Part shown: positions 6,407 through 26,184 of the stretch, piece by piece
Numbering within the stretch: position 1 is the first letter of the stretch
Layout of the letters: each line of letters starts with the position of its first letter
Origin: a virus
IMG/VR virus record: IMGVR_UViG_3300000116_000124
Coordinates: 3,521 to 29,704 of that record
Length of the DNA: 26,184 nucleotides
Strand: one strand, 5' to 3'
Program-made: the position numbers and the translations under genes
Notes under the pieces: generated by a model
What the model was told of the DNA's origin: nothing
What the model saw: the letters and a program-made list of their open reading frames with translations, nothing else
The model's database searches: none

Positions 6407-9400
6407 ATGCAAAATCGTTTTCAACACACATTTACTAAATCTAAAATGAATAAAGATTTAGATGCTAGATTAATTGCTAATGACGAGTATAGAGACGGCG
6501 TTAATATATCTGTTTCAAGAGCTGAAGCTGATGATGTTGGTGCGTTAGAAAACATACTAGGTAACTCCTTAATAAGCTCAATAGCTAGTTCTTCTCCTTT
6601 TTTAATGCAGACAATAGGTTGGTATTTTAATCCTGACAACGATAAATTATATTTGTTTGATACTAACTATCAAGACAACTCAAACGATCAAATTTCAAGT
6701 TTTGCACCAGTAGGATCTTTACATAGAATAATTGTTGTAGACCCAGCTGCTCAAACTTTTTCTGTTATAGTTCAAGGTAGATTTTTGAATTTTTCTTGGA
6801 ATAGCCCTATATTAGATATTGCTATATTAGAAAATTTAATGTTTTGGACAGATTTTAGAAATCAACCAAGAGTCATAAATATAAAAACAGCTGAAGCAAA
6901 CACAACTTATTACAACAATGAAGACCACGTTTCTGTGGCAAAATATTATCCTTATAAACCTATACAACTAACTAATGAACAAGTGGGAAAAGCTGGGTGG
7001 ATTAATGACAATAACACGTATGAAAGCGCATTTGACGGTTTAAATATATATAATTTTTTCTTAGTTGCAAAATCTGGAACTCCTACATGGGGTGTTTCTG
7101 TAGCTTTTGAAAAAATAATCGGTAACATAAGCTATGATTCTAATGGTGATTTAAAAACTTTTGCTCCAAATATAGGTTTACAAGGTTACGTTAAGGGGGC
7201 TGACAATAATTTGTGGGACTTTAAAGTTGCAAATGTTGAAGTAGATCCAACTGGTAGTACTTACCCGTCTCCATACAATGGAGGTTATAAAATTTCTATA
7301 GATAGAGATTTATCAAACGCTCTTGCCTTAGGAGCTGGAGATGGTGGAGCTCCAACTGACCCAAGTAAACTTTTATACCTAATAGATCAAACTTCAAAAA
7401 ATGTTAGTTCACCTTGGCTTGATGAGGATCAAGTTAAATTAGAAGTAAAAACTGTTTCTAGTTCAGTAGGTGGACTTTTAGTCTACTCAAATACAGCTGG
7501 AGCTCCATTTGCTCAAGCATTGTATGCTAAAGGAACAAATACACAAGCCGCTGGGTTAGGCACTGATGTTTTTAAAATACTAAATCATTTTCCAAAAAAC
7601 GATAACCCTACAGGAACTGCTCCGCTTTTAAATAGCACTGGCTTTCCTAGAATAATGTCTCCTAAATTAGATCCATTAGATTATTATGTTGTAACTGGTT
7701 TAGTTCCTGTCGACGGATCAGGTAGTTCTGGAACGCTAGGGTTTTCAATATCTAAATTAAGTGGTTTTGTAGACGGGGAATTAACGTCAATTGCACCAAA
7801 TACTATATTGGCGGGAGGCGATTTAATTTCTATACACTGGCCTAACAAGTTTTATAATTACGAATTTCCTGGTGATTCTAATTTTTTAAAAGAAAAGTTT
7901 GTAAGATTTGCTTATAGGTTTAAGTACGATGATGGACAATACTCTTTAATATCTCCCTTTACACAAAGCGTTTTTATTCCAAAGCAAAAAGGTTATTTTT
8001 TAAAAAAAATAGGTAAACAAAAAACAACTGGAATAAGCGAAAACAACTACGTACCTCAAGAAAATACTTTTGGAGAAAACACCATAAATGATTTTATGGT
8101 TAACGAAATCACTCAATCAACATTAAAGATCTCAACAGAATATAATGTTAACCAATTAGCTGATAAATTAAAAGTTTCTGAAATAGATATACTTTACAAA
8201 GAGTCAGATACTAATAACATAATGGTTGTAGAAACTTTAAAAGTTACAGATTCATCTATTACTCAAAATTCAAGTAAATTCATTGAATACGTTTATCAAT
8301 CAAGAAAACCAATAAAAACTCTTAGGTCAGCGGAAACAACTAGAGTTTATGACTTAGTCCCTACAAGAGCCAAAACTTTATCTTCAGCAGGCAATAGAAT
8401 AATATATGGAAACTTTTTTGATAGACCAACTTCACCACTAGGTTTAACTTTTTTTGCTTGTGCAAATCAAAAATTTACTCCTGCAACTACAACGCAAGTT
8501 AATAGATCAACAGGTGGTAACCAGTATAATCAAAGTCCTTTTTTACCTAATAAATATTCAAATGTTTCTTATCCTAACTCAAGTTTAAAACAAAACAGAA
8601 ATTATCAAGTTGGTATAGTGCTGCAAGATAGATACGGAAGATCTTCTGATGTTATATTGTCTAATTTTTCAGAAACTAATTTTACATTAAGAACTGGATC
8701 TTACAAAGAAGATCCTTTAACGTTTTTTGGATCAACTCTTTTTCATGAATATTTACCATCAGTAATAAGTCCTTTAACTCCTTACGCTGAAATTACGCAA
8801 TCAAATAAAGTTTACTCAGGAATAGTTAATTGGCCAGGAGACTCTTTAAAAGTATTATTTGTTGAACAAGTACCAAGATCTGTTACAGGAGTATCTGGTT
8901 ACCCAGGTCTTTATAAAGATCCTTTTGTAACTTCTACAATGGCAAATGCAACAATTTCACCTGGTAGTTACATAGACGTGCCTACTGGTGGTATAGTTGA
9001 CAGTGTACAACCTGGTATGGAAGTTTTTTGGACTATAGGTCTTACGGAATACTCTGCTTTTGTTCAGTCAGTTATTGTTTTAAATAATGCTACTACAAAC
9101 AGAATAAACCTTGTTAATGACGCAGGTGGCAGTGTTGGAGCGCAAGGAGATAATATTATACCTGCCTTTCCAAATACTAGTGTATTTGAATTTTATGAAG
9201 TTAACAATCCCATTGGTTGGTATTCTTATAAAATAGTCGTTAAACAAACTGAGCAAGATTATTATAACGTATATTTACCAAGCCTTTTAGATGGAGCTCC
9301 AGTAATAAAACCTTTTAGTCTAAACGTTCATTTTACTATTAATTCTAATGTTGCAAATATGCAGCCTATTGGAGATATGGAGTATTTAACATTTCCTCTT

Positions 9401-11254: not shown

Positions 11255-11269
11255 TAAAAAACATTAAAA

Positions 11270-11284
11270 AACAAGTGATTATAA
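11270..11284 (+). repeat. 15-bp motif AACAAGTGATTATAA, copy 2
   Basis: Exact copy of 4382-4396, here ending 3 nt before the start codon of the 642-aa tail gene in a 33-nt intergenic gap. It is a possible promoter or leader element. Bacteroidota housekeeping promoters (TTTG / TAnnTTTG) are not obvious in it. Confidence 0.5.
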
Positions 11285-11287
11285 ATT

Positions 11288-13216
11288 ATGGCAAATACAT
11301 TACCTTTAATTGAAGTAGAATTTTTTAACTGTATGTGGAATAAAAGAATATTAACTCCACAACCAAACAAGCAAACTAATGCAGTGACTGTTCCTGGTAG
11401 CACAGGTATGGCTGCTACTAATGTATATCCATTAAATAATGTATACGCACCTCCTTTAACTTATGTTAATTCTGGTACAAATAAATTTCCTACACTTCCT
11501 TATACTGAGAGTAGTACAACCGCATTAAGTGGATCTGTTGTTAAAGAAAACACATATATAGAAGAGTCTAGAATTAGAGGTGGATACAACAATGTTCAAA
11601 TGGACTTGGGCGCTAGAGCTTACTTAAATGAGGATGAGCCGCTGCAACAACATAGATTAAACACTTTAATATATTCAGGTGTATTTAACTCTTTAACAGG
11701 TATAAACAGAACCAATGAGTTTCCTGTAGGAACAAATATAACTAGATCAGCGAATCCACAATACAATAGTATACAAAAAATATACGCAGAAGAAAACAAC
11801 TTAGTTGTTCTTCAAGAAGACAAGTGTAGTAGGTGCTTGATAGACAAAAACGCTATATACAATGCTGAAGGTGGTGGTAGTGTAACTACTACAAATCAAG
11901 TTTTAGGTGAGATAATTCCTTATACTGGAGAATATGGAATAAGTAAAAACCCAGAAAGCTTTGCTATATATGCCTATAGAAAATATTTTGTAGATAGACA
12001 TAGAAACGCTGTTCTTAGACTATCTGGTGATGGCGTGACTGAAATATCTGAATACGGAATGAGAGATTATTTTAGAGATCAATTAACTCCTTTAACTGAT
12101 AATTATACTAATACTTATACTAAAATACTTTCTGGCGTAGCTGGGATTGATTCTAGTACTGCCTCAACGTCTATAATTGGTATGGGTTCTAGCAGTACAA
12201 TGGGTTTAAGTATTAATTATTTTTTAGGAGCTGAAGTATATTGGAGATCCAGCAGCACTTCTTCATGGGTAGACACAACGGCAAAAGTTACTGGAATTGG
12301 TAACCTGGCGCCAACTATCGCAGGAACAGGATCAATTTTTTTAGATAAAATACTAGACCCTACCTTTTTTGCTTCTGGTAACGTTAATGAAATTAAGTTA
12401 GTTGGCAGATATAGAAGTAGAATTCCAGCGGGTTATGATATATACAACAAACAGTATGTTCTTTCGATACAACCAAATAAAACTATTGAAGACTCTACTA
12501 ACGGAAATTTAAGAAGAGATTTTACTTATTACACTGTAGGTTTTGATGAAGCTATAAACGGTTGGCCTAGTTTTTACACTTATAGACCAGCTCAAATAGG
12601 TAGTTTAAAAAATACTTATTACACTTCTAATAATTACGATTGGAATGGTAGTGGTAATTCTACTTTAGGAGTTTTTCAACATTACAATGACGCTGTACCA
12701 AGAGGTCAGTTTTATAGTATAGACAATCCTTCTACAGTAAGTATAGTTGCAAACTCCCAACCATCTCTGCAAAAAGCTTTTTTAACAATAGACTATGAAG
12801 GAGATAGTGGTTGGCAAGTCTCTTCAGTTGAATCTGACCAAACTGGCTCTAATAGAGTGTTAACACAAAACACGGGTGTTTGGAATGGTGATTGGAATTT
12901 TTTCAAAGATCAATCAACAATAATATATAGTTACGCTGCTGGTGCATATGATAGCTTAGGAAATATAGGGACAGCTGCAAACCCAGTTAATGCCCCTTTA
13001 CTGAGAGCTGGTTTTGACAGAAAAGAAAATAGATATGTTGCTAATTTTATAAATACATCAACAGCTAACAACGCGGAAGTATTATATGGTAATCAAATTT
13101 CTGGATTAAAAGGTTATTATTTAGATGTGACTTTATCAACTGATGGAATAACTAATCCAGGGGCAATGAAAGAGCTATACGCTGTAGGTTTAAGTTACAA
13201 CGTTTCAGCTAGGTAA
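11288..13216 (+). CDS. Tail protein (crAss-like tail/hub family)
   Basis: 642 residues. Recognisable segments are IEESRIRGGYNNVQMDLGARAYL (about 91-113), QQHRLNTLIYSGVFNS, IYAEENNLVVLQEDKCSRCLIDK (about 165-187) and EYGISKNPESFAIYAYRKYF followed by HRNAVLRLS and ISEYGMRDYFRD. I recall this pattern from tail proteins that sit next to the gp10-like stabilisation protein in marine and crAss-like phages, sometimes as one fused gene. The composition is beta-rich with Asp/Asn/Gly turns, which would fit a propeller or tube/hub subunit. It follows the 1615-aa gene by 33 nt, with no terminator between them. A CxxC pair at about residues 179-182 is unusual because cysteine is otherwise rare in these tail proteins. 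Exact role (hub, nozzle or muzzle) is not resolved. Confidence 0.68.
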   Translation: MANTLPLIEVEFFNCMWNKRILTPQPNKQTNAVTVPGSTGMAATNVYPLNNVYAPPLTYVNSGTNKFPTLPYTESSTTALSGSVVKENTYIEESRIRGGYNNVQMDLGARAYLNEDEPLQQHRLNTLIYSGVFNSLTGINRTNEFPVGTNITRSANPQYNSIQKIYAEENNLVVLQEDKCSRCLIDKNAIYNAEGGGSVTTTNQVLGEIIPYTGEYGISKNPESFAIYAYRKYFVDRHRNAVLRLSGDGVTEISEYGMRDYFRDQLTPLTDNYTNTYTKILSGVAGIDSSTASTSIIGMGSSSTMGLSINYFLGAEVYWRSSSTSSWVDTTAKVTGIGNLAPTIAGTGSIFLDKILDPTFFASGNVNEIKLVGRYRSRIPAGYDIYNKQYVLSIQPNKTIEDSTNGNLRRDFTYYTVGFDEAINGWPSFYTYRPAQIGSLKNTYYTSNNYDWNGSGNSTLGVFQHYNDAVPRGQFYSIDNPSTVSIVANSQPSLQKAFLTIDYEGDSGWQVSSVESDQTGSNRVLTQNTGVWNGDWNFFKDQSTIIYSYAAGAYDSLGNIGTAANPVNAPLLRAGFDRKENRYVANFINTSTANNAEVLYGNQISGLKGYYLDVTLSTDGITNPGAMKELYAVGLSYNVSAR

Positions 13217-13227
13217 AATTAAATTAA

Positions 13228-13629
13228 ATGAAAATAAGAAAATTAACAGAGTCTGATTACGAGACTTTAGAAAAGTGGTGGAAAGCCTGGAAATGGCCAC
13301 CAATAGAAAAAGATTTTTTACCAGAAAATGGAACTGGTGGATTTGTAATAGAAAAAGAAGGAGTAATGATAGTTGCTGGATTTGTTTATATAACTAATTC
13401 TAAGGCAGTTTTGTTAGAATGGATAGTATCTAACCCTGATTACAAAGAAAATGATAGAGACATGGCTATAACAGTTCTTATAACTTCTGTAGAAAAAATA
13501 GTTAAAGATTGGGGATATAATTATATATTTACAATTGGTAGAAATAAAAGTTTAATTAGCAAGCATAAAAAATTAGGATGGCAAGTAGATGAAAAGCCAT
13601 CTCACGAAATAGTAAAAAAATTAAAATAA
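13228..13629 (+). CDS. GNAT-like acetyltransferase-fold protein
   Basis: 133 residues. It has the order expected of a small GNAT fold: MKIRKLTESDYETLEKWWKAW at the N-terminus, strands GGFVIEKEGVMIVAGFVYI (37-55) and AVLLEWIVSNP (60-70), a long helix from about 75 to 95, then YIFTIGRNKSLISKHKKLGW (99-118). The final strand-helix part, where the second substrate usually lies, is well formed. The canonical acetyl-CoA loop (Q/R-x-x-G-x-G/A) is not seen before the long helix; NDRDMA occupies that place. It may therefore bind CoA differently or may have lost catalysis. The gene lies between tail and internal-virion genes, an odd place for a metabolic enzyme but one where I recall similar proteins in marine phages. 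It could modify a virion or host protein; the substrate is unknown. Confidence 0.68.
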   Translation: MKIRKLTESDYETLEKWWKAWKWPPIEKDFLPENGTGGFVIEKEGVMIVAGFVYITNSKAVLLEWIVSNPDYKENDRDMAITVLITSVEKIVKDWGYNYIFTIGRNKSLISKHKKLGWQVDEKPSHEIVKKLK

Positions 13630-13634
13630 AAAAT

Positions 13635-14321
13635 ATGGGAGTAGTAGCAGGAATAGCAATAGCTGGTGGTATAGCCGCAGCCGTAGGCGCAACGACTAAT
13701 GCTATAGCGGCTAATAAAGCTAAAAAAGCAATGAATGCTGAGGAGTTAAAAGCGGCTGAACAAAATGAAATATTAGCAGCGCTAGAAGCCGATAGACCGG
13801 TATTTAAAAATCCTTATGCAGACATGAAAAATCAGTTTCAAGATTTAGATAATCCCTATGCTAATCTAACTGTTGCAACTGAAGCCATGAAAATACAAGC
13901 TCAGCAAGCTGATCAAGCTTTAGCAAACAGTTTAGATGTAATGATGGAGACTGGGCAGGCTGCAGGTGGAGCAACTGCTTTAGCTCAAGCTGCGTTACAA
14001 AGTAAAAGAGGTATTGCTGCTAGTATCCAAGGTCAAGAAGCAAAAAACAAATCTATGGCTGCTGAAGGACAGGCTCAAGTTGCACTACAAAAAGCTCAAG
14101 GAGCTGCCAACTTAGATCAACTGAGAGCTAGAGGTAGTGAAATGGAACAACGAGATGCTATTGGTTTTCATGAAAAGAAAATGGACAGAGTTGCTGGCCT
14201 TGCTGATAACGCAGCACAAAACGCTCAAGATCAAAGAGCAGCTAGAGCTGCTGCAATAACTGGGATAGGAACGTCAGTAATACAAGGAGCTAGTATAGTA
14301 GCTAGTGGTATAAAACCTTAA
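13635..14321 (+). CDS. Internal virion protein, T7 gp14-like
   Basis: 228 residues. The first 30 residues (GVVAGIAIAGGIAAAVGATTNAIAA) are a Gly/Ala-rich hydrophobic segment able to span or insert in a membrane. The body is an Ala/Gln-rich amphipathic helix with a repeated FKNPYADM / LDNPYANLTVATEA pair (about 56-79), then LANSLDVMMETGQAAGGATALAQAALQSKRGIAASIQGQEA, a pattern I recall in T7 gp14-type internal or ejection proteins of marine podoviruses. The end is again small-residue hydrophobic (AAAITGIGTSVIQGASIVASGI). Such proteins are stored inside the capsid and ejected first, forming a pore in the outer membrane for DNA entry. It starts 5 nt after the GNAT-like gene and is followed closely by two more candidate ejected proteins, in keeping with the T7 gp14-gp15-gp16 layout. 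Confidence 0.7.
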   Translation: MGVVAGIAIAGGIAAAVGATTNAIAANKAKKAMNAEELKAAEQNEILAALEADRPVFKNPYADMKNQFQDLDNPYANLTVATEAMKIQAQQADQALANSLDVMMETGQAAGGATALAQAALQSKRGIAASIQGQEAKNKSMAAEGQAQVALQKAQGAANLDQLRARGSEMEQRDAIGFHEKKMDRVAGLADNAAQNAQDQRAARAAAITGIGTSVIQGASIVASGIKP

Positions 14322-14331
14322 TAAAATTATC

Positions 14332-16050
14332 ATGAGTTATAGAAACCCGCAAAGAATTATAAACAGAGAAACTGATGCTATATTGAATGGTGGTAGAGAT
14401 ATGGTAAACATTATAGCTAGAACTACTTCAGATATTAGAGCAAGTGTTAAGGCTCAAAAAGAAGAAAAACAAAGACTACTAGACATACAAGATGCGGAGC
14501 AGCAAAGTATGTATTCAAAAATGAATGAAGTAAGCTCTAGTGGTAGTGGTTGTTTAGATGGCAAAATAAAATCTTTTTGGAATGACAAAGTAGATCAAGT
14601 AGCTAAAATAAAAAACCAAATGCAAACGGGTGAGTGGGATGAGTTTGTACCTAATAGGCAAGCAGGAAATCAAATGATAGCCAACATAGATGGTTTAGTA
14701 GATAAATTTGGAAAGCAAGCTGGTGCTTTTGCTCAGCAAAGCTCCGCGTTTAGAGATGCTAAAAAAAACGGAAACTTATCTTCTACTGGCTCAATACAAA
14801 ATAAACAAGTATTAGAAGCCATTGGAAATAATGATTGTTTGGATATTGTTGAAAAAGAAGGCAATATATACTACTATAAGCCTGGTCAAACAGATGATGA
14901 CGGTAATGAGCTTACTATAGATGCAATGATAGAAGGTGGTAAAGGAGCCTTAGTCAATGGCAATGAAATGGTTTCTCAAATAGCTGGTGGGCAAGATATG
15001 TTTGAAACAATGTATAATCCTGGCGAAGGTTTGACGGCAATATACAATAATAATGCAGATCCTGAAAGTGGAGATAGTGAATTTGTAGAGACTGTTAAAT
15101 TAAAAAAAGGCGATGAATATCCTAAAGGTTCAGGAATATTTTTTAATAACATACCAGAAGGTAAAGAATACACTTATTCTTCTTTTAAAGAACAAGATGA
15201 AGAAGGCAATGATAATAAATCAAAAATATTAGATCAAATGTCTTCTAGTAAAGGTATGGATGTTATTATTGGAAACCCTAAAATGAATACAGTCTGGCAA
15301 GATGAAATACCTGATGGTGAATTAGTAGCTGATGAAAATGGAGTACAACCAGGAGGACAAGGTTATATAGAAACTTTTACTCCAAATAGTATAGCTTACT
15401 ATGCTAAGCAATTAAATATTCCACCTCAATTTCAACCTGATGGAAATAATTATGATTTTTTACAAAACAGTGCATGGAAAGAGTTTGCTACAGACATGGA
15501 TCCAGAAGAGCAAGCAGAAATAACTGATTATCAAGATAAAATAGCTAGATTATATTTAGCTCAAAAATCTTTTGATGAAAACGCTAAAAATTATGGCAAA
15601 GCACAGTTAATTCAAAAAAATAATATAATATCACCTCCGGTAACTAATGCTGATAAAAATAAAAATACACCATATCAGTTTGGGAAAGCAGCGGGTGATC
15701 AAATAAACACAAGACAAGCTGATTACGATAGAGTACATGTAGATACTATTAAGCTATTTGAAGGTGGTAAGTCTGATACTAACGCTATTAATGATTACAT
15801 AATGGGTGAATTAGATGGTTTTGTAATGGGTACGGAAATAGAAGGCGCTGATCCTAACGCATTATATACTGAAGACAACGTTAAAGTAAATCCAAGCAGA
15901 ATTAATACACCAGAGAAATTAGAAGAATTTATATTGTTAAATCAAGATATGAATAGAGAGGCTTTAGGTTATTTTAGAAAAAATCAAAAACCAGAAGAAA
16001 AAACTACAAAAAATAATAACAATAATCCAGCAGGGCTAAATCTACCTTAA
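14332..16050 (+). CDS. Internal/ejected virion protein candidate (572 aa)
   Basis: 572 residues, mostly hydrophilic. The N-terminal 170 residues are helical (RETDAILNGGRDMVNIIART.., a Lys/Glu/Gln-rich stretch, then DKFGKQAGAFAQQSSAFRDA). A Gly/Asp-rich, more compact domain follows from about 185 to 400, with Tyr/Trp-containing strands. The last 20 residues are Lys/Glu then poly-Asn, probably disordered. There is no membrane segment and no motif I can tie to an enzyme. Its place between the gp14-like protein and the giant protein, with 10 nt and 1 nt gaps, makes it the positional counterpart of T7 gp15, the middle internal-core protein. That assignment is by synteny, not by sequence. Confidence 0.62.
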   Translation: MSYRNPQRIINRETDAILNGGRDMVNIIARTTSDIRASVKAQKEEKQRLLDIQDAEQQSMYSKMNEVSSSGSGCLDGKIKSFWNDKVDQVAKIKNQMQTGEWDEFVPNRQAGNQMIANIDGLVDKFGKQAGAFAQQSSAFRDAKKNGNLSSTGSIQNKQVLEAIGNNDCLDIVEKEGNIYYYKPGQTDDDGNELTIDAMIEGGKGALVNGNEMVSQIAGGQDMFETMYNPGEGLTAIYNNNADPESGDSEFVETVKLKKGDEYPKGSGIFFNNIPEGKEYTYSSFKEQDEEGNDNKSKILDQMSSSKGMDVIIGNPKMNTVWQDEIPDGELVADENGVQPGGQGYIETFTPNSIAYYAKQLNIPPQFQPDGNNYDFLQNSAWKEFATDMDPEEQAEITDYQDKIARLYLAQKSFDENAKNYGKAQLIQKNNIISPPVTNADKNKNTPYQFGKAAGDQINTRQADYDRVHVDTIKLFEGGKSDTNAINDYIMGELDGFVMGTEIEGADPNALYTEDNVKVNPSRINTPEKLEEFILLNQDMNREALGYFRKNQKPEEKTTKNNNNNPAGLNLP

Positions 16051-16051
16051 T

Positions 16052-19000
16052 ATGCCATACACTATAGAGCAATTTGCAAAAGCAATAAGAGAGAAATACA
16101 ATGCCTATCAAGATGTTGATGATCAATCATTAGCTGACGCAATGATAGAGAAGTATCCAGAATATGCTGATCAAATAATTTCAGAGCCACCGCTTAAAGT
16201 TGAAGAAGCTATAAGTTATGAAACTGTTAATAATGATTTGGCAAAAGAAGAAAGTGAATTGTTTTCAGAAGCCAACGTTAGATTAGCTAACGATAAAGAA
16301 AAAGAGCTTAAAAAGCTTAGAGCAGAAGATGTAAAGTATAAAAAAGCAAGAGATAGATATAGACCTAAAGACTGGGACTATAAAGAAGTTTCTATTGAAG
16401 GTGAAGATGGTCAAGTAAAAACATATCCTTATGCAGAAATACACAATAGGTATGGTGATGTAAATGAATATATAAAAAGGTTTCAAGGCAAAGCTAAGCT
16501 TATAGATAACACTCCTGAAAATATAGTTAATGAAATAAACGATTTAAATAACCCAGAGCTACAAGAAAAATTAAAAAAATCTCAAGAAGAAAGGGTTAAC
16601 ACCATAAAAAGATTAGAAAAAGAAGAAGCTGATAGAATAAACAGTCAAGAAGATTTTTATGCTAGGAAAAATAACATTAATAAATTAGTAAGTGCTAAGA
16701 AACTTAGTCAAGATATTTCAAAAATAGATGATAATTCTGAAGAATCTATAAAAATATTAGGACAAGACATGTTTAGTAGCATAGAAAATAGACTAGACTC
16801 TGCTGCTGCTAATGCTATGGCAAATGACAGGATAGACGATGATTTTTTAAATACTTATTTTGATGCAAAAAATATAGGTATTACAAAAGCTAGAGAACTT
16901 TATAATAAATATAAAGAATATAAAGACAGTGATGGAGAATCTTTTGATGTAGACTACGTAAAAGCGCAAAGGCCAAACGCTATGGCTGCGGCTACTAGAA
17001 AAGCTAAAGAAAAAAATATGGAATTATTCTTTATTGATAATGATTATGATGAAGGAGATAGAAGAGTAGTTACAGAGTTTTTAGCTGATGAATTAGATGG
17101 ACCTGTTAGTGCACAAGAGTTAAGACAAGCTTATAAAGACTATAGAAAAGAAGATGAAGATCTTAAAGGTATTCCTGGCAAAGACTTTGGTACATTTGCA
17201 GCTAATAAACTTTTTGATAAAAAATATGAAGAAATAAATAATCTTAACAAAGGTATAAGCGAAGATGTTGAAATATATAAAAAAGAAAGTGATAAGTTTA
17301 AGTTTGATAATCAAAAATATATTTCAAAAGTAAATAGTATTAATGAGAAATTACAAGCACTAAAAGACAAAGGAATAAACTCTCAATCAACTCAATTAGA
17401 AATTGATGAATATAATGGCCTTATAGCTGATTATAATAAAGTCAAAACATCTATGAGCGAAAGTGGCTATTTTGAAGGAGAAGAAATACTTGCTAATCAA
17501 CTAAGGTCTATAAAAAATCGTAGTGAAGTTTTGATGGACAAGAGTGCTAAGCTAGATGATGTTGCTTTAGCAGGTGAAGTAGCTGTTAAAGATTTTAGTA
17601 ATTTTAATAGAATGCAGTTGCAGCTTGAAAAAGCTTTTATAGGCGGTGGTGCTATGTTAGGTTCTTCGTTAATTAAAGGGTTTTTTGAATTAGGTAAAAG
17701 TGAAGAAGAATTAGAATCTCCATTTTACCAAGATCTTAAAGCTATGAAAGGCGCTGCTGTTAATTACAATGAAGATTTAGGTGCACAATTAGAAGAAGAT
17801 TTTGTAGGTAATTTAACTACTGATGATGTTACAGGCGGTAATATAGGTTACTATATGTCTCAAATGTTTGCTAACAACTCCCCTTCTATATTGGCTACAG
17901 TTCCTATGTTGGCTAGTGGAGGCATTGGTGGTTTGCTTGTAGGTAGTGGTACTAGAATAGCAGGCGCTAAAGTTGCTCAAGCTGGCTTATCTAAAGCTGC
18001 TGGCAAATTAGCACAAGCATCTTTCTTTACAATGGGCTATGGTGGCAAACTATCTGACATGGAAATAGCAAACAAAAATGCTCAAGGACAGATAGATGGT
18101 TTAAATAAGGAATTAGAGAGTGAGGATCTTACAGCTTATGAAAGAATAGAAAAAGAAAAGCAAATAGACAATTTAAATCAAGTGTTATCTATACCTCAAT
18201 GGAAAAGAAGTACTAATGCTTTGTGGTCTGGAAGTGTTGAACTTCTTACTGAAAGGTTAGGTTCGCTTAGCTATATAACTAATTTAAATAAATTTTCTAC
18301 AGTAGCAGGAACTAAACCTTTTAAAAAATTAATGTACGGTGGTATGAATACATTGTACAACGTGGGTATAGAACTTGGTGAAGAAACCACAGCTCAAATA
18401 GCAGGTAATCTTGGAGACATAGTTTTACTAGATGAAGACAAAAGTATAGTAGATGGTATTGATAAAGATTTTTTAGCTAATACTGTTTTTACATCAATGA
18501 CAATACAAGGGCCAGGCATGGGTGGCAACATGTATAATATGTTTAAAGACGAGATGGCTACTCGATCAGAAAGAAAAACTACTAATAAAAGGAGAACAGA
18601 GTTTTATGAATTAACTTTAGACTTACAAGATAGAGCTAGTTTAACTAAAAAACAACAAAAAGAAAAAGTAGCTAGACAAAAAGAAATATTAGAAGCTGAA
18701 GCCTTTGATGATGTAAAAGCCACAAACAAATTAAATAGATTGTCTAAAGAAGAGCAACTTGCTTTATTTGACTTAAATAGACAAAGAAGGAAAAAACTTA
18801 GAGACTTAAGATCTGAAGGAGCCAAAGGCGATACTAAAACTGCTCAACAAAGAAAAAATCAATTAGTATCTGAGTATAAAAAAATTGATGATCAAAGAGA
18901 TAATTTACTTAATAAAAACAAAAGAAAAAACCAGAAAAAAGCAAAAGACAATGTTGACCCTGCTCAATATGAGTTCAATATAGGCATGAATGAGTTTTAC

Positions 19001-22000
19001 ACTGATTTAGTAGAAATGAATCAGGTTAAAAACAAAAGTGGTTTTGAAAAGTTTGAAGAAGGTAATCCACCAAATATAGAAGCTTTAACTGAAAAATACG
19101 GAAGAAAAACAGCTTCTCAAATAATGAATTCATACAAAAAAGGTTCTAATGCGGCTAATGTAGGTAATGATATATTTTTATTTCAGAAAAATATAGATCG
19201 TAACATGGCTAATACCATTCAAAAGACAGAATCAGAAATAGCTGCAGTAGCGCCTATGCACGAGCTTTTGCATATTCAAAATAGAAAAGCTGGATTAGTT
19301 AAAGACGATGTAGTTGTTTCTCAAGCTAATAGAGCTATAAAAGAATTAGATGGAGAGCTAGACGTTGCTTTAGCAGGCGGTAGAGTTACTCAAGAGCAGT
19401 TTGATAATTTTCAAGCTAGAAAAAAAGCTTATACAACTAGCAAAGGAGTTAATGTAGAAGAGTTATTAAACTTATACGGAGATTTTGTATCTATAGGAGT
19501 GTTAAGCCCAAGTAGTTTAAACAACATGTTTGGTATAAAAAATACTTTATCAACTTTAGTTAACAAGTTTAATCCTACTAACCAAGCTTGGTTGTTTCCT
19601 ATGAAGACTGGTAAAGATGTGTACGGGTATTTAGATAGTTTTCAAAAGTCTGCTAAAGAAATGGATGTTGCTATAGATGAAGATGACAAGTCTAGTAAGT
19701 TTTTAGAGCAAAAATCTAACTTAGCTGCTTTAACTCAAGATTTTGATATGGCCACGCCTAAAGGTAGAAGAGCTTTTTTAAATGAAAAACTAGTTAAAGA
19801 TGCTGAAGGTAATTTTGTATCTGACTTGAATCAATCTGAGTTTGGTAAAGAAATAGGTGGAATTATAGAATCTACAACTAAAAGACTATATGATAAAGTG
19901 CCTTCTGATTTAAAAAGAGGTATTAGTAGACAAGATTTTAAAAATGATTTAATAACTTTAGCTAGTACTTTAACGCAACAAGAGTTTGATCCTAGTAAAC
20001 AGGATCTTGATAAGTTTATAAGCAATAGATTGAATCTAAGAGCCAATAAGCTTGCTACAGATACGTTTGGTCAGGAATTTCAAGATGACATCACAGAAGC
20101 CAAAGATGTCGCGATAGATGAGTCTGACGATAGACCAGCAGAAAAAGAAGTTAGAAAGTCAAAATTAAAAGATAGACTAGTTACTAATGAAGATCAAAAG
20201 AAAAATTTAGACAGAGCTTTAGAGAAAATAAGAAACCAAGTTAATAGCTTGCCTATAGACAGTTTAAATTTTAAAACATTAAAAGACTTAGCAACTAGAG
20301 AAGTTCAAAAGATGTTTGGCATAGACCCTAAGCCTGGTAATTTAACAAAGAAAGATGTAAACAATGCTCAAGCTTTTATAAATAAAAATGCAGACGCTTT
20401 AATAGCTATGTTACCTCAAGGCGCTACACCTAGTGGTACTTCTACTGGTGTACAACAAGTTTTATTAAATGAGTTTTATAGAAAAGGTGATAGAGCTTCT
20501 ATGGCTAAGACAGGTACTAAAGCTGGGCTTGCTGTGCAAACTAAAAGAAATGATATAACACCAAGTGAATTTAAAGAAGTTTTTGGTATAAGACCTGCTG
20601 GTGAATCTAATGTAAGTGATAGGAACACTAGCGCTAGAGTAAAAGCTTTAGTTTCTCAAACAGAAAGAATGTTAACTAATCAAGAGGTTAGACAAGCATT
20701 GTCCAAAGAAGGAAGAGATATACCTAGCATACTAGCAGAAGGTAAATCTGAAGTGATGGAGTCTAAATCTATAAATGAACTGTCTCCAGAACAAATAGAA
20801 CTTTATGATAAAATATCAAATGCTAGAGGTATTAATGATGTAGCAAAGATATTAAATCTTGATCCGGTAACAGTTAATGACGAAAATAGAGAGGAAAAAC
20901 AACTAGCTATACTACAAGCTATAAGAGATCATGGATTAAGCGTTAACGTTTTTAAGTCTGCTATGCCTGCTTCTTCTGGAGCCGTAAGATTTGCTGTGAA
21001 AAAGAAAAAAACCGAAAAACAACTAGACGGTTATATAGCTAAGAACAATATAAAAGCAAAAGAAGGAGATTATTATTATAAACTAACTAATGGCGAGTAT
21101 GTTTTAGGGCAAAGAGTTTTAGATAAAGATGGTAAACAAGCTTTTGATAAAAAAGGTAAAAAAAGATTTTTACCTCCAGTAGATAAAGATGGTGTTCCAT
21201 TAACTAATTTAGTTGCAAAAAAAGGAAGACTTTATTATGGCGTTACAGATCCTGCTTATATTACAGCTTTAGAAAGTGCGGTTCCAGACTCTCAAAAACC
21301 TAAAAGAATAACAGTAAAAGGTAGAATTACAAAAGAATTTTACGATTCTAACAAAGAGCAAAGTGATATGAACATGGATATACTTGAAGATGTAGCTACC
21401 CAATTAGGTAAAGCTGTAGCGGACGGTATGAATCCATCTTTAGCAGCTTTATTAATAGCTCAAGGTTATCAAGCAACTGCAGGTCTTATAAAAATATCAG
21501 CACCTTTTACTACTGTTAGTAAATTTTTTGAACATGGTTTAACACCAAAACAACGTACAGGAGTTAAGTACAGAGAAGAACATAACCCTCCAGCATCAGT
21601 AATTGGTGCTACTTTAATAGCTGCTATAGTAAATAATGAAGTAGCTGAAGTATTTCCTTTTATTAGAAAAAATTATTCTCAAACTCAATTGTCAAAATTA
21701 GATGATGAAAAAATTGATCAAGCTAGATTGGATGCTACGCTTCCAGAAGGTTTTAGTATATTTAATAATCCAGCTATAAGACTAGCTAAGTCTGGTATAA
21801 ATTTAAATAGCTTAGTAAACATTAGAACAGGAATAACAGTAGCAGAACAAATAGGTATAGGTGTTTCTGAAGAGTTTGCTAATATCCCAGATGTTATTGC
21901 ATTACAAAACGAGCAATTAGATTTAATAGAAAAAGGTAAATCAATAGAAGAAGCTAACGCCGATATACAAGCATTTTTACCTATATCAAAAGCGATGAAA

Positions 22001-24688
22001 GAGGCTTCTGATGTTACAGTTGCTCAATTGAATGAGTCTAAAGTTTTGAATGTTAATGATAACATGACAACTCAAGATCTTTTAAATAAAGCAGCTACTA
22101 TAGATGCAGCACTAGCTTTAGCTAATAAAGGTAATAAAAAAATAAAGAAAATTAGAGTATTTGATTTTGATGACACTATAGCAAAAAGTAACAGCTTAGT
22201 TTATTACACAAAACCTAATGGCACGCAAGGAGAATTAACAGCAGAACAGTTTGCTTCTAAAGGTGCAGAGCTAGTTAATGAAGGTGCTGTAATGGATTTT
22301 TCAGATTTCAATATAGTTAGAAACGGTGAGCGTGGTCCATTGTTTGAAGTAGCACAAGCTATAAAAGAGTCTAGAGGAAATGAGGATTTATTTATACTAA
22401 CAGCTAGAGCACCAGAAGCTCAACAGGCTATATATCAATTTTTAAAAGACGAAGGTTTAGAATTTAAAATGGATAATATAGTAACTCTTGGCAACTCAAC
22501 AGGTGAAGCTAAAGCAAACTGGATGATAGATAAAGCAGCTGAAGGCTATAATGATTTTTATTTTGCTGATGACGCTTATCAAAACGTTAAAGCAGTTCAA
22601 GATGCTATGTCAGTTATAGATGTTAAATCAGAAGTTCAACAAGCTTTGATAAATGAAAGCGTTAGTTTAAATGATAATTTTAACAAAATCATAGAACAAA
22701 AAACTGGTATAGCTTCAGAAAAAAGATATTCAGAAGCCAAAGCTAAAGTTAGAGGAGAGAAAAGAAAAAAATTCCAATTCTTTATTCCTTATTCTGCTGA
22801 AGATTTTATGGGATTAATATACCCATTATTAAGCAAAGGTAAATTAGGTGACAGCCAGTTAGCTTGGTTTAAAAAGAATTTAATAGATAAATTTGCTAAA
22901 GCTCAGTTAAATTTACAACAAGCTAGAGTTACATTAATGGAAGACTTTAAGAAATTAAAACAAGATCTTAATGTTCCTAAAGATTTATCTAAAGAATCTG
23001 CTGATGGTTTTACAAATGAACAAGCTGTAAGAGTTTACTTGTGGAATAAGTTAGGCTTAACAATACCCGGATTGTCTGCTACAGATACAAAAGAACTAGT
23101 TGCTTCTATAGAAAACAACCCTACGTTAAAAACTTTTGCTGATAAATTAGCTCAAATAAATAAAGATCCTTATCCAGCGCCACTAAAAGATTGGTTAACT
23201 GGTACTATTACAACAGATTTAATGAGAGGATTAAAAGAAACTAAAAGACCTGAGTATTTAAAAGAGTGGCAAGAGAACGTCGATGTAATATTTAGTCCTG
23301 AGAATTTAAACAAATTAGAAGCTGCTTATGGTCCTCGATATAGAGAGTCTTTAGAAAATATATTAGCTAGAATGAAAAGTGGTAGTAATAGAATACAAGA
23401 AGGCAATAGATTAAGTAATAGAATACTTAACTATATTAATGGATCTAATGCTGCTATAATGTTCTTTAATACTAGATCTGCTATACTGCAAACAATATCT
23501 AGTATAAACTTTATGAACTGGAGTTTTAATAATCCAGTTAAAGCTGGTGCTGCTTTTGCTAATCAAGGTCAATACTGGAAAGACTTTATGACATTGATGA
23601 ACTCTGATTTTTTAAAAGACAGGCGTAACGGTTTAAAAATAAATATAACAGAGTCTGAAATAGCTGATGCTGCTAAAACCTCTAAGAACAAAGCTAAAGC
23701 AGTTTTAAACTACATATTATCTAAAGGTTACGCACCAACTCAATATGCAGATAGTTTTGCTATAGCTTCTGGTGGTGCTACTTATTATAGGAATAGAATA
23801 AATGATTTAGTAAAAAACGAAGGTATGCCTATCGTTGAGGCACAAGAGCAGGCTATGCAAGAATTTATGGAGCTTACAGAGGAAAACCAGCAATCTAGTA
23901 GGCCTGATAAAATATCTCAACAGCAGTCTAGTGATTATGGTAGATTAATACTTATGTTTGCTAATACACCTATGCAATATGCTAGGTTACAGAAAAGAGC
24001 TTTTCAAGATCTTGTCAACGGTAGAGGTGATTCTAAAACTAATGTAAGTAAAATAATATACTACGGTGTAGTTCAAAATATTATATTTAACGCTTTACAA
24101 CAAGCTGTTTTTGCTTTAGGTTTTGGTGACGAAGAAGAAGACGATAAGCAAAAGAGTAAACGTGCAATTGGCGTAGCTAACGGCATGGCTGACTCATTAC
24201 TAAGAGGTTTAGGTATTGGTGGTGCAACAGTTTCTGTGGTTAAAAACTTTTTACTAGATATATACGAAAGATCTGGAAGAAAAAGACCTGAGTATGTCGA
24301 CTCAATATATAAGTTACTACAATTTTCACCACCTATAAGTTCTAAAATATCTAGGTTAAGAGCTGCCGCTTGGTCGTTTGATAGTAAAAAAAGAAGGCAA
24401 GAAATGTTAGACAAAGGATTTAGTTTAGATAATCCTGCTTACATGGCAGGAGCAAAAGTAGTTTCAGCTACATCTAACGTACCTTTAGATAGAGTTCTTT
24501 TAAAATTAGATAACTTGTCTGGAGCTATGGATGAAAATAATGATTTGTGGCAAAGAATAGCTTTAGCATCTGGTTGGCCTGAGTGGCAATTAAAACCTCC
24601 TACTATTTACGATACAGCTAAAACAAAAAGCTCTAAAAGAAAAGTAAAAATAAGAAAAAGAAAAGTTAAAAAAAGAAAAGTTAAATAA
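16052..24688 (+). CDS. Giant multidomain virion protein (2878 aa; zincin motif, HAD phosphatase domain)
   Basis: 2878 residues, the largest gene here, starting 1 nt after the 572-aa gene. In order: an N-terminal helical piece ending QSLADAMIEKYPEYADQI, similar to small domains at the start of many phage internal proteins; a long charged helical region; Gly/Ala-rich hydrophobic segments near residues 525-545 and 605-650; an HELLH zinc-protease motif at 1070-1074 with a possible third ligand at E1136/E1137; Lys-rich helices; a complete HAD domain (about 2033-2190); a conserved C-terminal half-kilobase-length helical part with a hydrophobic stretch near 2668-2692; and a Lys/Arg tail (KRKVKIRKRKVKKRKVK). 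No DxDGD-type RNA polymerase signature is present. Position suggests the gp16-like ejected protein: carried in the capsid, entering the cell with DNA and acting on envelope or host factors. Close relatives recur in marine phages, but activities are unproven. Whether both enzyme domains are active is an inference from intact motifs. Confidence 0.8.
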   Translation: MPYTIEQFAKAIREKYNAYQDVDDQSLADAMIEKYPEYADQIISEPPLKVEEAISYETVNNDLAKEESELFSEANVRLANDKEKELKKLRAEDVKYKKARDRYRPKDWDYKEVSIEGEDGQVKTYPYAEIHNRYGDVNEYIKRFQGKAKLIDNTPENIVNEINDLNNPELQEKLKKSQEERVNTIKRLEKEEADRINSQEDFYARKNNINKLVSAKKLSQDISKIDDNSEESIKILGQDMFSSIENRLDSAAANAMANDRIDDDFLNTYFDAKNIGITKARELYNKYKEYKDSDGESFDVDYVKAQRPNAMAAATRKAKEKNMELFFIDNDYDEGDRRVVTEFLADELDGPVSAQELRQAYKDYRKEDEDLKGIPGKDFGTFAANKLFDKKYEEINNLNKGISEDVEIYKKESDKFKFDNQKYISKVNSINEKLQALKDKGINSQSTQLEIDEYNGLIADYNKVKTSMSESGYFEGEEILANQLRSIKNRSEVLMDKSAKLDDVALAGEVAVKDFSNFNRMQLQLEKAFIGGGAMLGSSLIKGFFELGKSEEELESPFYQDLKAMKGAAVNYNEDLGAQLEEDFVGNLTTDDVTGGNIGYYMSQMFANNSPSILATVPMLASGGIGGLLVGSGTRIAGAKVAQAGLSKAAGKLAQASFFTMGYGGKLSDMEIANKNAQGQIDGLNKELESEDLTAYERIEKEKQIDNLNQVLSIPQWKRSTNALWSGSVELLTERLGSLSYITNLNKFSTVAGTKPFKKLMYGGMNTLYNVGIELGEETTAQIAGNLGDIVLLDEDKSIVDGIDKDFLANTVFTSMTIQGPGMGGNMYNMFKDEMATRSERKTTNKRRTEFYELTLDLQDRASLTKKQQKEKVARQKEILEAEAFDDVKATNKLNRLSKEEQLALFDLNRQRRKKLRDLRSEGAKGDTKTAQQRKNQLVSEYKKIDDQRDNLLNKNKRKNQKKAKDNVDPAQYEFNIGMNEFYTDLVEMNQVKNKSGFEKFEEGNPPNIEALTEKYGRKTASQIMNSYKKGSNAANVGNDIFLFQKNIDRNMANTIQKTESEIAAVAPMHELLHIQNRKAGLVKDDVVVSQANRAIKELDGELDVALAGGRVTQEQFDNFQARKKAYTTSKGVNVEELLNLYGDFVSIGVLSPSSLNNMFGIKNTLSTLVNKFNPTNQAWLFPMKTGKDVYGYLDSFQKSAKEMDVAIDEDDKSSKFLEQKSNLAALTQDFDMATPKGRRAFLNEKLVKDAEGNFVSDLNQSEFGKEIGGIIESTTKRLYDKVPSDLKRGISRQDFKNDLITLASTLTQQEFDPSKQDLDKFISNRLNLRANKLATDTFGQEFQDDITEAKDVAIDESDDRPAEKEVRKSKLKDRLVTNEDQKKNLDRALEKIRNQVNSLPIDSLNFKTLKDLATREVQKMFGIDPKPGNLTKKDVNNAQAFINKNADALIAMLPQGATPSGTSTGVQQVLLNEFYRKGDRASMAKTGTKAGLAVQTKRNDITPSEFKEVFGIRPAGESNVSDRNTSARVKALVSQTERMLTNQEVRQALSKEGRDIPSILAEGKSEVMESKSINELSPEQIELYDKISNARGINDVAKILNLDPVTVNDENREEKQLAILQAIRDHGLSVNVFKSAMPASSGAVRFAVKKKKTEKQLDGYIAKNNIKAKEGDYYYKLTNGEYVLGQRVLDKDGKQAFDKKGKKRFLPPVDKDGVPLTNLVAKKGRLYYGVTDPAYITALESAVPDSQKPKRITVKGRITKEFYDSNKEQSDMNMDILEDVATQLGKAVADGMNPSLAALLIAQGYQATAGLIKISAPFTTVSKFFEHGLTPKQRTGVKYREEHNPPASVIGATLIAAIVNNEVAEVFPFIRKNYSQTQLSKLDDEKIDQARLDATLPEGFSIFNNPAIRLAKSGINLNSLVNIRTGITVAEQIGIGVSEEFANIPDVIALQNEQLDLIEKGKSIEEANADIQAFLPISKAMKEASDVTVAQLNESKVLNVNDNMTTQDLLNKAATIDAALALANKGNKKIKKIRVFDFDDTIAKSNSLVYYTKPNGTQGELTAEQFASKGAELVNEGAVMDFSDFNIVRNGERGPLFEVAQAIKESRGNEDLFILTARAPEAQQAIYQFLKDEGLEFKMDNIVTLGNSTGEAKANWMIDKAAEGYNDFYFADDAYQNVKAVQDAMSVIDVKSEVQQALINESVSLNDNFNKIIEQKTGIASEKRYSEAKAKVRGEKRKKFQFFIPYSAEDFMGLIYPLLSKGKLGDSQLAWFKKNLIDKFAKAQLNLQQARVTLMEDFKKLKQDLNVPKDLSKESADGFTNEQAVRVYLWNKLGLTIPGLSATDTKELVASIENNPTLKTFADKLAQINKDPYPAPLKDWLTGTITTDLMRGLKETKRPEYLKEWQENVDVIFSPENLNKLEAAYGPRYRESLENILARMKSGSNRIQEGNRLSNRILNYINGSNAAIMFFNTRSAILQTISSINFMNWSFNNPVKAGAAFANQGQYWKDFMTLMNSDFLKDRRNGLKINITESEIADAAKTSKNKAKAVLNYILSKGYAPTQYADSFAIASGGATYYRNRINDLVKNEGMPIVEAQEQAMQEFMELTEENQQSSRPDKISQQQSSDYGRLILMFANTPMQYARLQKRAFQDLVNGRGDSKTNVSKIIYYGVVQNIIFNALQQAVFALGFGDEEEDDKQKSKRAIGVANGMADSLLRGLGIGGATVSVVKNFLLDIYERSGRKRPEYVDSIYKLLQFSPPISSKISRLRAAAWSFDSKKRRQEMLDKGFSLDNPAYMAGAKVVSATSNVPLDRVLLKLDNLSGAMDENNDLWQRIALASGWPEWQLKPPTIYDTAKTKSSKRKVKIRKRKVKKRKVK
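19230..19470 (+). other. Zincin metallopeptidase motif within the giant protein
   Basis: HELLH at residues 1070-1074 supplies the two zinc-ligand histidines and the catalytic Glu of the zincin superfamily, in the context APMHELLHIQ, where a hydrophobic strand precedes the helix as expected. VEELLNLYGDF at 1135-1145, some 60 residues later, gives candidate gluzincin-type third ligands (E1136 or E1137). Cleavage of a host or virion protein during entry or assembly would fit, but no substrate is indicated. Confidence 0.6.
22148..22640 (+). other. HAD-superfamily phosphatase domain within the giant protein
   Basis: All four HAD motifs are present in order: motif I VFDFDDT with nucleophile D2038 and acid/base D2040; motif II LTAR with T2117; motif III K2154 in EAKANW; motif IV FADD with D2173 and D2174. 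Spacing (about 79, 37 and 19 residues) suits a small-cap HAD enzyme. A phosphatase or phosphotransferase acting on a nucleotide, polynucleotide end or phosphoprotein is possible. An active set of residues in a structural protein is notable. Confidence 0.82.
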
Positions 24689-24695
24689 TTAAGTT

Positions 24696-24851
24696 ATGGC
24701 AAGTAAAACAAAAAAGAAAACAAAAAAAGATGCTTGTTATCACAAAGTAAAAGCAGCTAATAAAGTATGGCCAAGCGCTTATGCTTCAGGTCAATTAGTA
24801 AAATGCCGTAAGGTAGGAGCTAAAAATTGGGGTAAATCAAAGAAAAAATAA
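24696..24851 (+). CDS. Small basic cysteine-containing protein (51 aa)
   Basis: 51 residues starting with ATG at 24696, 7 nt after the giant gene. It has a Lys-rich N-terminus (KTKKKTKKDACYHKVK), then VWPSAYASGQLVKCRKVGAKNWG and a Lys-rich end. I recall a nearly identical module (DACYHKVK...WPSAYASG.LVKCRK.GA.NWG) in proteins from marine phages and giant viruses, either alone or fused to other proteins, without known function. The two Cys, one His and Trp/Tyr suggest a compact fold, possibly metal- or nucleic-acid-binding; the high positive charge would suit DNA or RNA. Its stop TAA shares one base with the next start (TAATG), so translation of the two small genes is probably coupled. It may be a packaged or DNA-associated protein. 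Confidence 0.72.
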   Translation: MASKTKKKTKKDACYHKVKAANKVWPSAYASGQLVKCRKVGAKNWGKSKKK

Positions 24852-25096
24852 TGGCTATTAAAGGAGGAGGAACTAGAAAAGTATGTCTACCTAAATCTAA
24901 AGTAGATTCAATGTCTGATGAAGAAAAGAAAGCAGTTGTTAATGCTAAAAAGAACGCAGCATCAAGAGGTAAGTATAGACGTAGTTCTAAGAGTAATGTT
25001 AAAGGAGCTCGTAAAAAAGGAGCAACTTTAAAAGACTGGTTTGAAAAAGAAAACTGGATAAACGTTGCCACGGGTGAGCCTTGTGGTAAAAAATAA
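24851..25096 (+). CDS. Small basic protein, DUF5872-like (81 aa)
   Basis: 81 residues, start overlapping the previous stop by 1 nt. The layout is GGGTRKVCLPKSKVDSMSDEEKKAVVNAKKNAASRGKYRRSS (about 5-46), then KGARKKGATLKDWFEKENWINVATGEPCGKK. The ending L-x-x-W-x-x-E-x-W-x-x-V-x-T-G-x-PCG and the (K/R)VCLPKSKV opening resemble the DUF5872-type basic proteins that I recall in marine phages, large DNA viruses and some bacteria. The family has no established function. It is strongly basic, has two cysteines (C12, C78) and no membrane segment, and is predicted to be helical in the middle. Binding to nucleic acid is a reasonable guess. It is the last gene of the + strand unit. Family name is from memory and not verified. 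Confidence 0.72.
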   Translation: MAIKGGGTRKVCLPKSKVDSMSDEEKKAVVNAKKNAASRGKYRRSSKSNVKGARKKGATLKDWFEKENWINVATGEPCGKK

Positions 25097-25174: not shown

Positions 25175-25179
25175 ATTTG

Positions 25180-25253
25180 TGGAGAATATCAGAGTCGAAC
25201 TGATGACCTCCTGCGTGCAAGGCAGGCGCTCTAGCCAGCTGAGCTAATCCCCC
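25180..25253 (-). tRNA. trnA(ugc): tRNA-Ala (anticodon UGC)
   Basis: A full cloverleaf of 74 nt reads on the - strand. The acceptor stem GGGGGAT/ATTCTCC has two G-T wobbles, the D-stem is GCTC/GAGC, the anticodon stem is CCTGC/GCAGG with loop CTTGCAC (TGC at 34-36), and the T-stem ATCAG/CTGAT is perfect with loop TTCGACT. The discriminator base is A and CCA is not encoded. The sequence resembles tRNA-Ala(UGC) of Bacteroidota, which suggests capture from such a host. It could support translation of the Ala-rich virion proteins, which often use GCT and GCA codons. A terminator follows immediately. Confidence 0.96.
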
Positions 25254-25314: not shown

Positions 25315-25476
25315 TTAAAATTTAAAACTAATTCCAACAGCTACAAAAAATCCGCCACTAGCTATTGCTAATGTATTAGGATTTAAATCAAACTGTGGTG
25401 CGTGGGGATGCCACAACATATATGAAGTCCCAGCTGTCATTAAGCTGAGACCTCCAATTATTGCTAACTTCTTCAT
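25315..25476 (-). CDS. Small membrane protein candidate coupled to nrdJ (53 aa)
   Basis: 53 residues starting MKKLAIIGGLSLMTAGTSYML. Its ATG overlaps the nrdJ stop as ATGA, a typical arrangement for translational coupling. Residues 4-21 are hydrophobic, followed by WHPHAPQFDLNP, and a second hydrophobic stretch lies at about 36-50 (TLAIASGGFFVAVGISF). The Lys pair before the first segment could mark a signal peptide or the start of a two-segment membrane hairpin. I do not recognise the family. It could be a holin-like protein by size and topology, but a position behind a nucleotide-metabolism gene gives no support for that. A short lipid-associated protein or a spurious ORF are the alternatives; the exact overlap argues for a gene. 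Confidence 0.62.
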   Translation of the reverse strand: MKKLAIIGGLSLMTAGTSYMLWHPHAPQFDLNPNTLAIASGGFFVAVGISFKF

Positions 25477-26184
25477 TTAATTTCGCAATTATCACCTGCA
25501 CAAGCTAATTCTCCTGCAAGATCTGTTTCATCTTCTGTTTCTACGATCTTACTAAGATCAACATCTTTTAAATGTTTCATAGCCATGTCGTAGTTTACTT
25601 TACTTATATCTTCAAACGGAGCTTGAGTATATGTGCCACCATCATAAGGCAGTACAGATAAGCCGTTGTAATGATCTCTGTTTTCCCACATCCACTTACC
25701 AGCTGCGTCCCACTCTTCTTGTTTTAAACTAACGGTAGCTGAAACATTGTGAGTATTAGATCCTTTTCTGTGGCCAGGCTTAACCCATTCAGTAGCTACT
25801 TTCTTTATACGTTCAAGTAGATCAAAAGGTGACTCGCCTCTTATTATAGAACCTTCAGGTGCTTTTTGTGGTATACTAATTACAGCTGTGTCGTGAGGTC
25901 TAAAAAACTCATCTTCAACTAGCTCAGGATGATTAGCAGATAAATACTTATACATAGATTCGTTTTTACCAACCCTGATCCTACGCGTATAATAATCAGC
26001 ATGCCAAGCATGAATACCAGATGAAGTTCCTAATGCCAGAGATGTCGTCCCAGCAGGCTTCACGGTTGTACATCTTGCAGCTGGATTAATACCAATTGCT
26101 TTAGCTGTCTTTGTATTCTCTCTTTTTACTATACTTGCAGCGGCCTTCATATCCAACGGCAGCACAGCGGCACTCGCGATTCCT
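25473..26184 (-). CDS. nrdJ: Adenosylcobalamin-dependent (class II) ribonucleotide reductase, C-terminal part
   Basis: The frame continues to the window edge, so the N-terminal part is missing; about 236 residues are visible. The segment RCTTVKPAGTTSLALGTSS followed by GIHAWHADYYTRRIRV is the conserved barrel region of monomeric class II reductases of the Lactobacillus leichmannii type. SVLPYDGGTYTQAPFEDISK and a final C-x4-C (CAGDNC) follow. That spacing matches the C-terminal cysteine pair that re-reduces the active site in the Lactobacillus enzyme. The enzyme makes deoxynucleotides from ribonucleotides using coenzyme B12, in the cytoplasm, and phages often carry it to supply replication. 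The finger-loop cysteines and the radical-generating Cys are outside the window. A GTG at 26163-26165 is internal, because open sequence continues beyond it. Transcription runs toward the tRNA and terminator, opposite to the virion genes. Confidence 0.92.
   Translation of the reverse strand, partial: GIASAAVLPLDMKAAASIVKRENTKTAKAIGINPAARCTTVKPAGTTSLALGTSSGIHAWHADYYTRRIRVGKNESMYKYLSANHPELVEDEFFRPHDTAVISIPQKAPEGSIIRGESPFDLLERIKKVATEWVKPGHRKGSNTHNVSATVSLKQEEWDAAGKWMWENRDHYNGLSVLPYDGGTYTQAPFEDISKVNYDMAMKHLKDVDLSKIVETEDETDLAGELACAGDNCEIK

Follow-up and report, generated by a model that had tools for sequence, protein, structure and literature searches.

A giant virion-type protein encoded on marine viral contigs combines a zincin-like motif set with a HAD phosphatase-type domain whose catalytic residues are invariant

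Phages must act right after entry, before making any protein. The locus described here, in which a gene for a 2878-residue protein follows a set of virion genes, raises the question of what such a phage might deliver together with its genome. The window, i.e., the whole stretch of DNA that was analysed (26,184 nucleotides), comes from a virus record of 29.7 kb, of which it makes up the right-hand part (26.2 kb). Positions 16052-24688 of its + strand are occupied by a single ORF of 2878 codons, which starts with ATG, contains no internal stop and begins just behind the stop codon (16050) that closes the preceding gene. The choice of the ATG start is supported by the 59% identity of residues 4-42 to the sequence of Maribacter phage Panino. 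The giant gene is preceded by a late operon that comprises the portal C-terminus, scaffold-like, major capsid, ring and tail genes, followed by the genes of a GNAT-like protein and of two proteins of 228 and 572 aa.

16052..24688, + strand: giant virion-type protein, 2878 aa (ORF reading; 69 distinct proteins compared)
13635..14321, + strand: 228-aa protein, second gene upstream of the giant, weakly similar to the virion protein phi40:1 gp99
14332..16050, + strand: 572-aa protein directly upstream of the giant, in synteny with the virion protein phi40:1 gp100

The portal, major capsid and ring/tail neighbours are homologous to those of phi38:1 and elemo. The capsid protein is 37-50% identical to those of a spring-water podovirus, Maribacter phage Panino, Flavobacterium elemo phages and Cellulophaga phage phi38:1, and the gene order around the giant is kept in these phages. 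The 228-aa protein matched phi40:1 gp99 with 26.7 bits (E 6.8e-9 in a small comparison set), while the similarity of the 572-aa protein to phi40:1 gp100 was below significance and the two correspond by synteny alone. Both upstream products are probable ejection partners of the giant.

Other features of the window deserve mention. The GNAT-like protein (133 aa, 13228-13629) has counterparts in elemo, Panino, the spring-water phage and phi40:1; the latter, gp98 (25% identity, E 1.5e-7), is recorded by MS/MS as a virion protein, which suggests a packaged acetyltransferase-like protein. Two genes at 6407-13216, for proteins of 1615 and 642 aa, together match what is one gene in phi38:1 (gp97) and in elemo (gp22), indicating a gene split. 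The giant gene is followed by genes of two small Lys/Arg-rich proteins (24686-25096), by a tRNA-Ala (tgc) gene at 25179-25253 on the - strand, and by an ORF at 25473-26183 on the - strand, which by eye resembles a fragment of a class II ribonucleotide reductase.

The N-terminal part of the giant bears on the question of whether it is a virion component, as the initial annotation had assumed.

16052..17491, + strand: variable N-terminal region, residues 1-480, of which 4-42 are common to Panino (alignment)
17489..18691, + strand: module common to the virion giants of cultured flavobacterial phages, residues 480-880 (profile)

A profile of residues 480-880 matched phi40:1 gp101 with 95.8 bits (E 3.7e-26, scaled to 177,635 sequences) and phi18:3 gp123 with 44.4 bits (E 1.5e-10), as well as the giants of phi38:1, elemo (gp18), Panino and phi13:2. 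The virion evidence for the Cellulophaga giants consists of notes in GenBank records: those of phi40:1 gp97-gp101 and of phi18:3 gp120, gp121 and gp123 state 'annotation based on experimental MS/MS proteomics analysis'. As the giant shares this module and the gene position with phi40:1 gp101 and phi18:3 gp123, it very probably travels in the virion too, judging by the homology of one module and by its place in the operon. We propose that residues 480-880, in which E778 is kept in 62 of 69 proteins, are an ejection or envelope module. The hydrophobic segments noted initially were reduced to one that is strong and membrane-like (611-633), the weaker ones lying inside the EH-P and C-terminal regions described below. 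The HAD domain and the conserved C-terminal half are absent from the cultured relatives with virion records, and hence the delivery of enzymes is something that we infer.

To what extent is the rest of the protein shared? A scan with the whole giant returned 5 relatives; with the HAD domain as the query, 210 viral contigs (marine) were seen to encode a relative. We retrieved 80 of these 210 contigs, which gave 69 proteins, the window protein included, once near-identical copies were dropped. In nearly all of them the domain sits in a giant ORF, and the complete proteins are 2,331-3,593 aa long. They have a common architecture, with a single HExxH motif upstream of HAD and about 660-800 residues beyond it, and the zincin and HAD parts are co-conserved in nearly all members. 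Conservation is by far the strongest in HAD and the C-terminal half, whereas the N-terminal two thirds are variable; in one relative, residues 485-532 form a collagen-like repeat. Matches in genome contigs were to MAG contigs binned with unrelated hosts. Additionally, Foldseek comparison with viral models (BFVD) revealed four proteins of uncultured viruses (A0A218MMX7, A0A218ML07, A0A218MLT5 and A0A7S9STY3) with 28-43% identity over about 800-1350 columns, which are probably direct relatives of the giant.

Among the most constrained parts of the protein is its HAD domain, whose intact catalytic set had been recognized in the initial annotation.

22139..22651, + strand: HAD phosphatase-type domain, residues 2030-2200 (model, motifs, phrog_415 at 6.6e-07)
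22163-22177, + strand: HAD motif I
22400-22402, + strand: HAD T2117
22511-22513, + strand: HAD K2154
22568-22573, + strand: HAD D2173-D2174

HAD motifs I-IV were present in 64 of 64 proteins, and D2038, D2040, D2041, T2042, T2117, R2119, K2154, D2173 and D2174 were each invariant in the same number (64/64). Moreover, when the AlphaFold2 model of residues 2030-2191 was compared with solved structures, VIA-align gave Z values of 8-9.6 and nearly all rows were HAD proteins. Thus, both the catalytic set and the HAD fold hold. Class B/C acid phosphatases, pyrophosphatases and others lay too close together among these matches for the substrate to be distinguished. We did not adopt the label 'polynucleotide kinase' carried by phrog_415, since matches to this profile reflect HAD proteins in general and also arise in ordinary bacterial genomes; PNK was absent among the structures listed for the HAD model. 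An RNA ligase partner had no match in 17 related records, a search in which the positive control gave none either.

In three relatives (L070, L084 and L088) the HAD domain is interrupted, after motif I and before motif II, by a zeta-toxin/AAA_33 kinase. The spacing of these two motifs is 276-277 residues in L070 and in L084, as compared with the usual 77-78. The inserted domain matched Zeta_toxin and AAA_33 with E values of 1.2e-13 and 2.8e-14 in L070, and of 2e-12 and 2.5e-12 in L084. The presence of this nested kinase points the role of HAD toward phosphoryl chemistry. Three of the four BFVD relatives are deposited as uncharacterized and one is labelled UDP-N-acetylglucosamine kinase; the latter is perhaps a version with the nested kinase.

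Upstream of HAD, the alignment singles out a candidate metallopeptidase.

18944..19501, + strand: zincin-like metallopeptidase domain, residues 965-1150 (HExxH and downstream Glu; confident helix)
19259..19273, + strand: HELLH, residues 1070-1074 (motif)
19460..19462, + strand: E1137, putative third metal ligand, 69/69 (alignment)

An HExxH motif occurred in 0.05% of 2,000 composition-matched shuffles of the giant. In the alignment of residues 600-1600 (69 sequences, mean column identity of 14%) the only invariant columns were E1071, H1074 and E1137 (69/69 each); H1070 was H in 65 of 69. The remaining four proteins have EELFH in place of HExxH, so that the first metal-ligand His is replaced by Glu. 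In the AlphaFold2 model HExxH lies on a confident helix and E1137 on a later one, also confident. Pfam matches to zincins were weak and confined to single or few members (ATLF 7.9e-4, M78 1.5e-3, also DUF6782), and a profile search reached small zinc proteases at E 0.2; both are in line with a zincin. Among the rows listed by Foldseek and VIA-align for the multi-domain 600-1600 model, which long helices dominated, there was no zincin. The zincin of the initial annotation is thus strongly supported in its motif set and invariance, but its fold did not appear in the fold searches; by motif and residue invariance, residues 965-1150 are a putative zincin-like metallopeptidase.

The remaining conserved parts flank the HAD domain.

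21254..21976, + strand: EH-P domain, residues 1735-1975, confidently folded (model; E1843-H1844 conserved)
22682..24631, + strand: conserved helical C-terminal region, residues 2211-2860 (alignment, model, polyvalent-protein likeness)
24632..24685, + strand: basic C-terminal tail (charge count)

E1843-H1844 of the EH-P domain are kept in 58-59 of 64 relatives, and the domain has neither a solved-structure match nor a credible Pfam match. The conserved, mostly helical C-terminal part was confirmed for residues 2211-2860, as was the basic tail, with a net charge of +14 in the last 30 residues; 46 of 63 complete relatives have a tail charge of at least +5. When residues 1660-2858 were compared with viral models (Foldseek, BFVD), many large phage proteins were matched, mostly at 10-14% identity and with E values from 3e-13. 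Several of them are annotated as PolyVal ADP-ribosyltransferase, ART-PolyVal-like, LPD-containing or MuF C-terminal; the PolyVal ART, ART-PolyVal-like and LPD-annotated matches had E values of 5e-8 to 2e-4. The same region gave nothing with E below 0.001 against PDB, and Pfam sequence models detected no polyvalent-associated domain in the giant. Taken together with the published description of polyvalent proteins (PMC5512222), this structural likeness of the C-terminal half places the giant in the polyvalent class.

We consider it fairly likely that the giant is a polyvalent virion cargo delivered at infection, with a self-cleaving zincin and a C-terminal half that carries an active HAD phosphatase. 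The protein would be made late and packed with the genome, and ejected into the cell at infection alongside the 228-aa and 572-aa upstream products. Its fast-changing N-terminal half with the 480-880 module would serve packaging and the passage through tail and envelope. The zincin (965-1150) would cut the giant itself, either inside the particle or upon entry, freeing the C-terminal part. Among the domains of polyvalent proteins the zincin is the most frequent, and a self-processing role has been proposed for it (PMC5512222); the cleavage of host proteins appears less likely here than self-cleavage. The freed, nearly constant C-terminal half would bring the active phosphatase, whose most likely targets at an early stage of infection would be phosphates of nucleotides or nucleic acids.

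Alternatively, the giant could be mainly a structural or ejection-channel protein, whose enzymes act only in assembly or tail passage, the zincin as a maturation protease. The cultured relatives devoid of HAD or the C-terminal half are virion structural proteins, and residues 480-880 are the only part clearly common to the cultured virion giants, as would be expected in such a case. However, the strongest conservation, that of HAD and the C-terminal half, is hard to square with passage alone, and it is not obvious what a phosphatase would do during assembly, so that this explanation is unlikely. Somewhat similarly improbable is that the giant is a counter-defence package, in which host defence proteins would be cut by the zincin and nucleotide signals of defence would be degraded by HAD. 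The options proposed for polyvalent proteins include a zincin aimed at the host (PMC5512222), and both enzymes are kept together in nearly all members, but their set does not vary across diverse phages, although rapid exchange would be expected of counter-defence cargo.

A further possibility stems from a domain between the zincin and EH-P regions, which, like the EH-P domain and the nested kinase of relatives, goes beyond the initial annotation.

19805..20107, + strand: sigma-70 region-2-like domain, residues 1252-1352 (profile and structure comparisons)

Four partly independent tests pointed to sigma factors: they ranked first and second in a PDB profile search with residues 1252-1352 (E 0.0076 and 0.021), were included among structural matches at 1214-1341 (Z 6-7.5, a range common among helical folds), were matched by Pfam Sigma70_r2 in 3 of 34 members (best 6.5e-4), and gave P 3e-5 for 1252-1352 in hhalign against four E. 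coli sigma factors. When hhalign was run in windows (15, then 70), only the 1252-1352 stretch scored. Homology to sigma-70 region 2 is thus probable; sigma function is considerably less so. A separate sigma-factor gene of about 250 aa is present in 11 of 17 related records, the other six being 47-52 kb long and possibly fragments.

There is a small chance, comparable to that of a mainly structural role, that the giant is a virion-borne takeover kit lacking an RNA polymerase of its own, joining a self-processing zincin, a sigma-like module that seizes host RNA polymerase to make the first phage transcripts, and HAD, which in some members forms a nested kinase-phosphatase. That the sigma-like domain is the main cargo, gripping host RNA polymerase for phage early promoters, with HAD and zincin as accessories, is quite improbable. 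The four tests would favour it, and T7-type RNA polymerase was unmatched in the 17 related records, although so was the positive control of that search. Against it, none of the 70 windows of the giant contained a convincing sigma region 3 or 4, the domain did not match the profile of the phages' own sigma factor, and the paired tryptophans of E. coli region 2 were not seen by eye in the giant family. Finally, it is very improbable that the giant is a non-virion early protein placed at the end of the late operon by chance, since it is homologous to, and syntenic with, giants that have virion records.

A phosphatase whose catalytic residues are fully invariant, in a giant virion-type protein encoded on more than 200 contigs, is a clean target for learning what a phage delivers with its genome. 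The same family allows one to ask whether the zincin releases the phosphatase and whether the sigma-like module is delivered too. As cultured flavobacterial phages carry giants with the 480-880 module, the delivery system is open to laboratory study.

Among these cultured phages, phi40:1 gp101 (1691 aa) and phi18:3 gp123 (1935 aa) resemble the giant in following two smaller virion genes and in having the 480-880 module. Unlike the giant, the phi38:1 protein, which is near-identical to that of phi40:1, and the phi13:2 protein lack HExxH, HAD and a matching C-terminal half. Flavobacterium phage elemo gp18, a structural protein of 3694 aa, occupies the same position, contains the module (73.8 bits) and has HEIFH with a weak zincin-profile match (19 bits), but differs in carrying DUF3293 and giving no HAD match. 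In phage T7, the genes of gp14, gp15 and gp16 are consecutive and in small-medium-giant order. The giant was initially equated with T7 gp16 by position, and it is indeed the last and largest of three consecutive genes; however, it is more than twice as long, has no family match to gp16, and showed no lytic transglycosylase domain in Pfam or PHROG searches, so that the correspondence in gene and size order is a positional analogy only. In crAss001, a short-tailed phage of a Bacteroidota host, giant virion cargo (gp45-gp50) has been proposed to unfold partially in passage (PMC10172136), and by analogy it is plausible that the giant must unfold during ejection. The likeness is that of a huge cargo in the virion; the largest crAss001 cargo proteins are, in contrast, RNA-polymerase-associated.

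The closest parallel suggested at the outset, that with polyvalent proteins, was borne out by both domain content and C-terminal structural similarity. Polyvalent proteins carry many unrelated enzyme domains per chain, among them a zincin, and are encoded in a late-gene neighbourhood (Iyer, Aravind and colleagues 2017, PMC5512222). The giant combines at least two unrelated functional domains in one chain, the HAD fold and the zincin motif set, and its gene adjoins late virion genes. Zeta-toxin-like kinases are mentioned among polyvalent proteins (PMC5512222), while the main text of that paper uses none of the terms haloacid, HAD superfamily, phosphatase or sigma; the giant has HAD and probably a sigma-like domain. 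No earlier description of this domain combination was found in the literature searched. The phage polyvalent virion protein is a known class, to which the giant adds a domain combination of its own.
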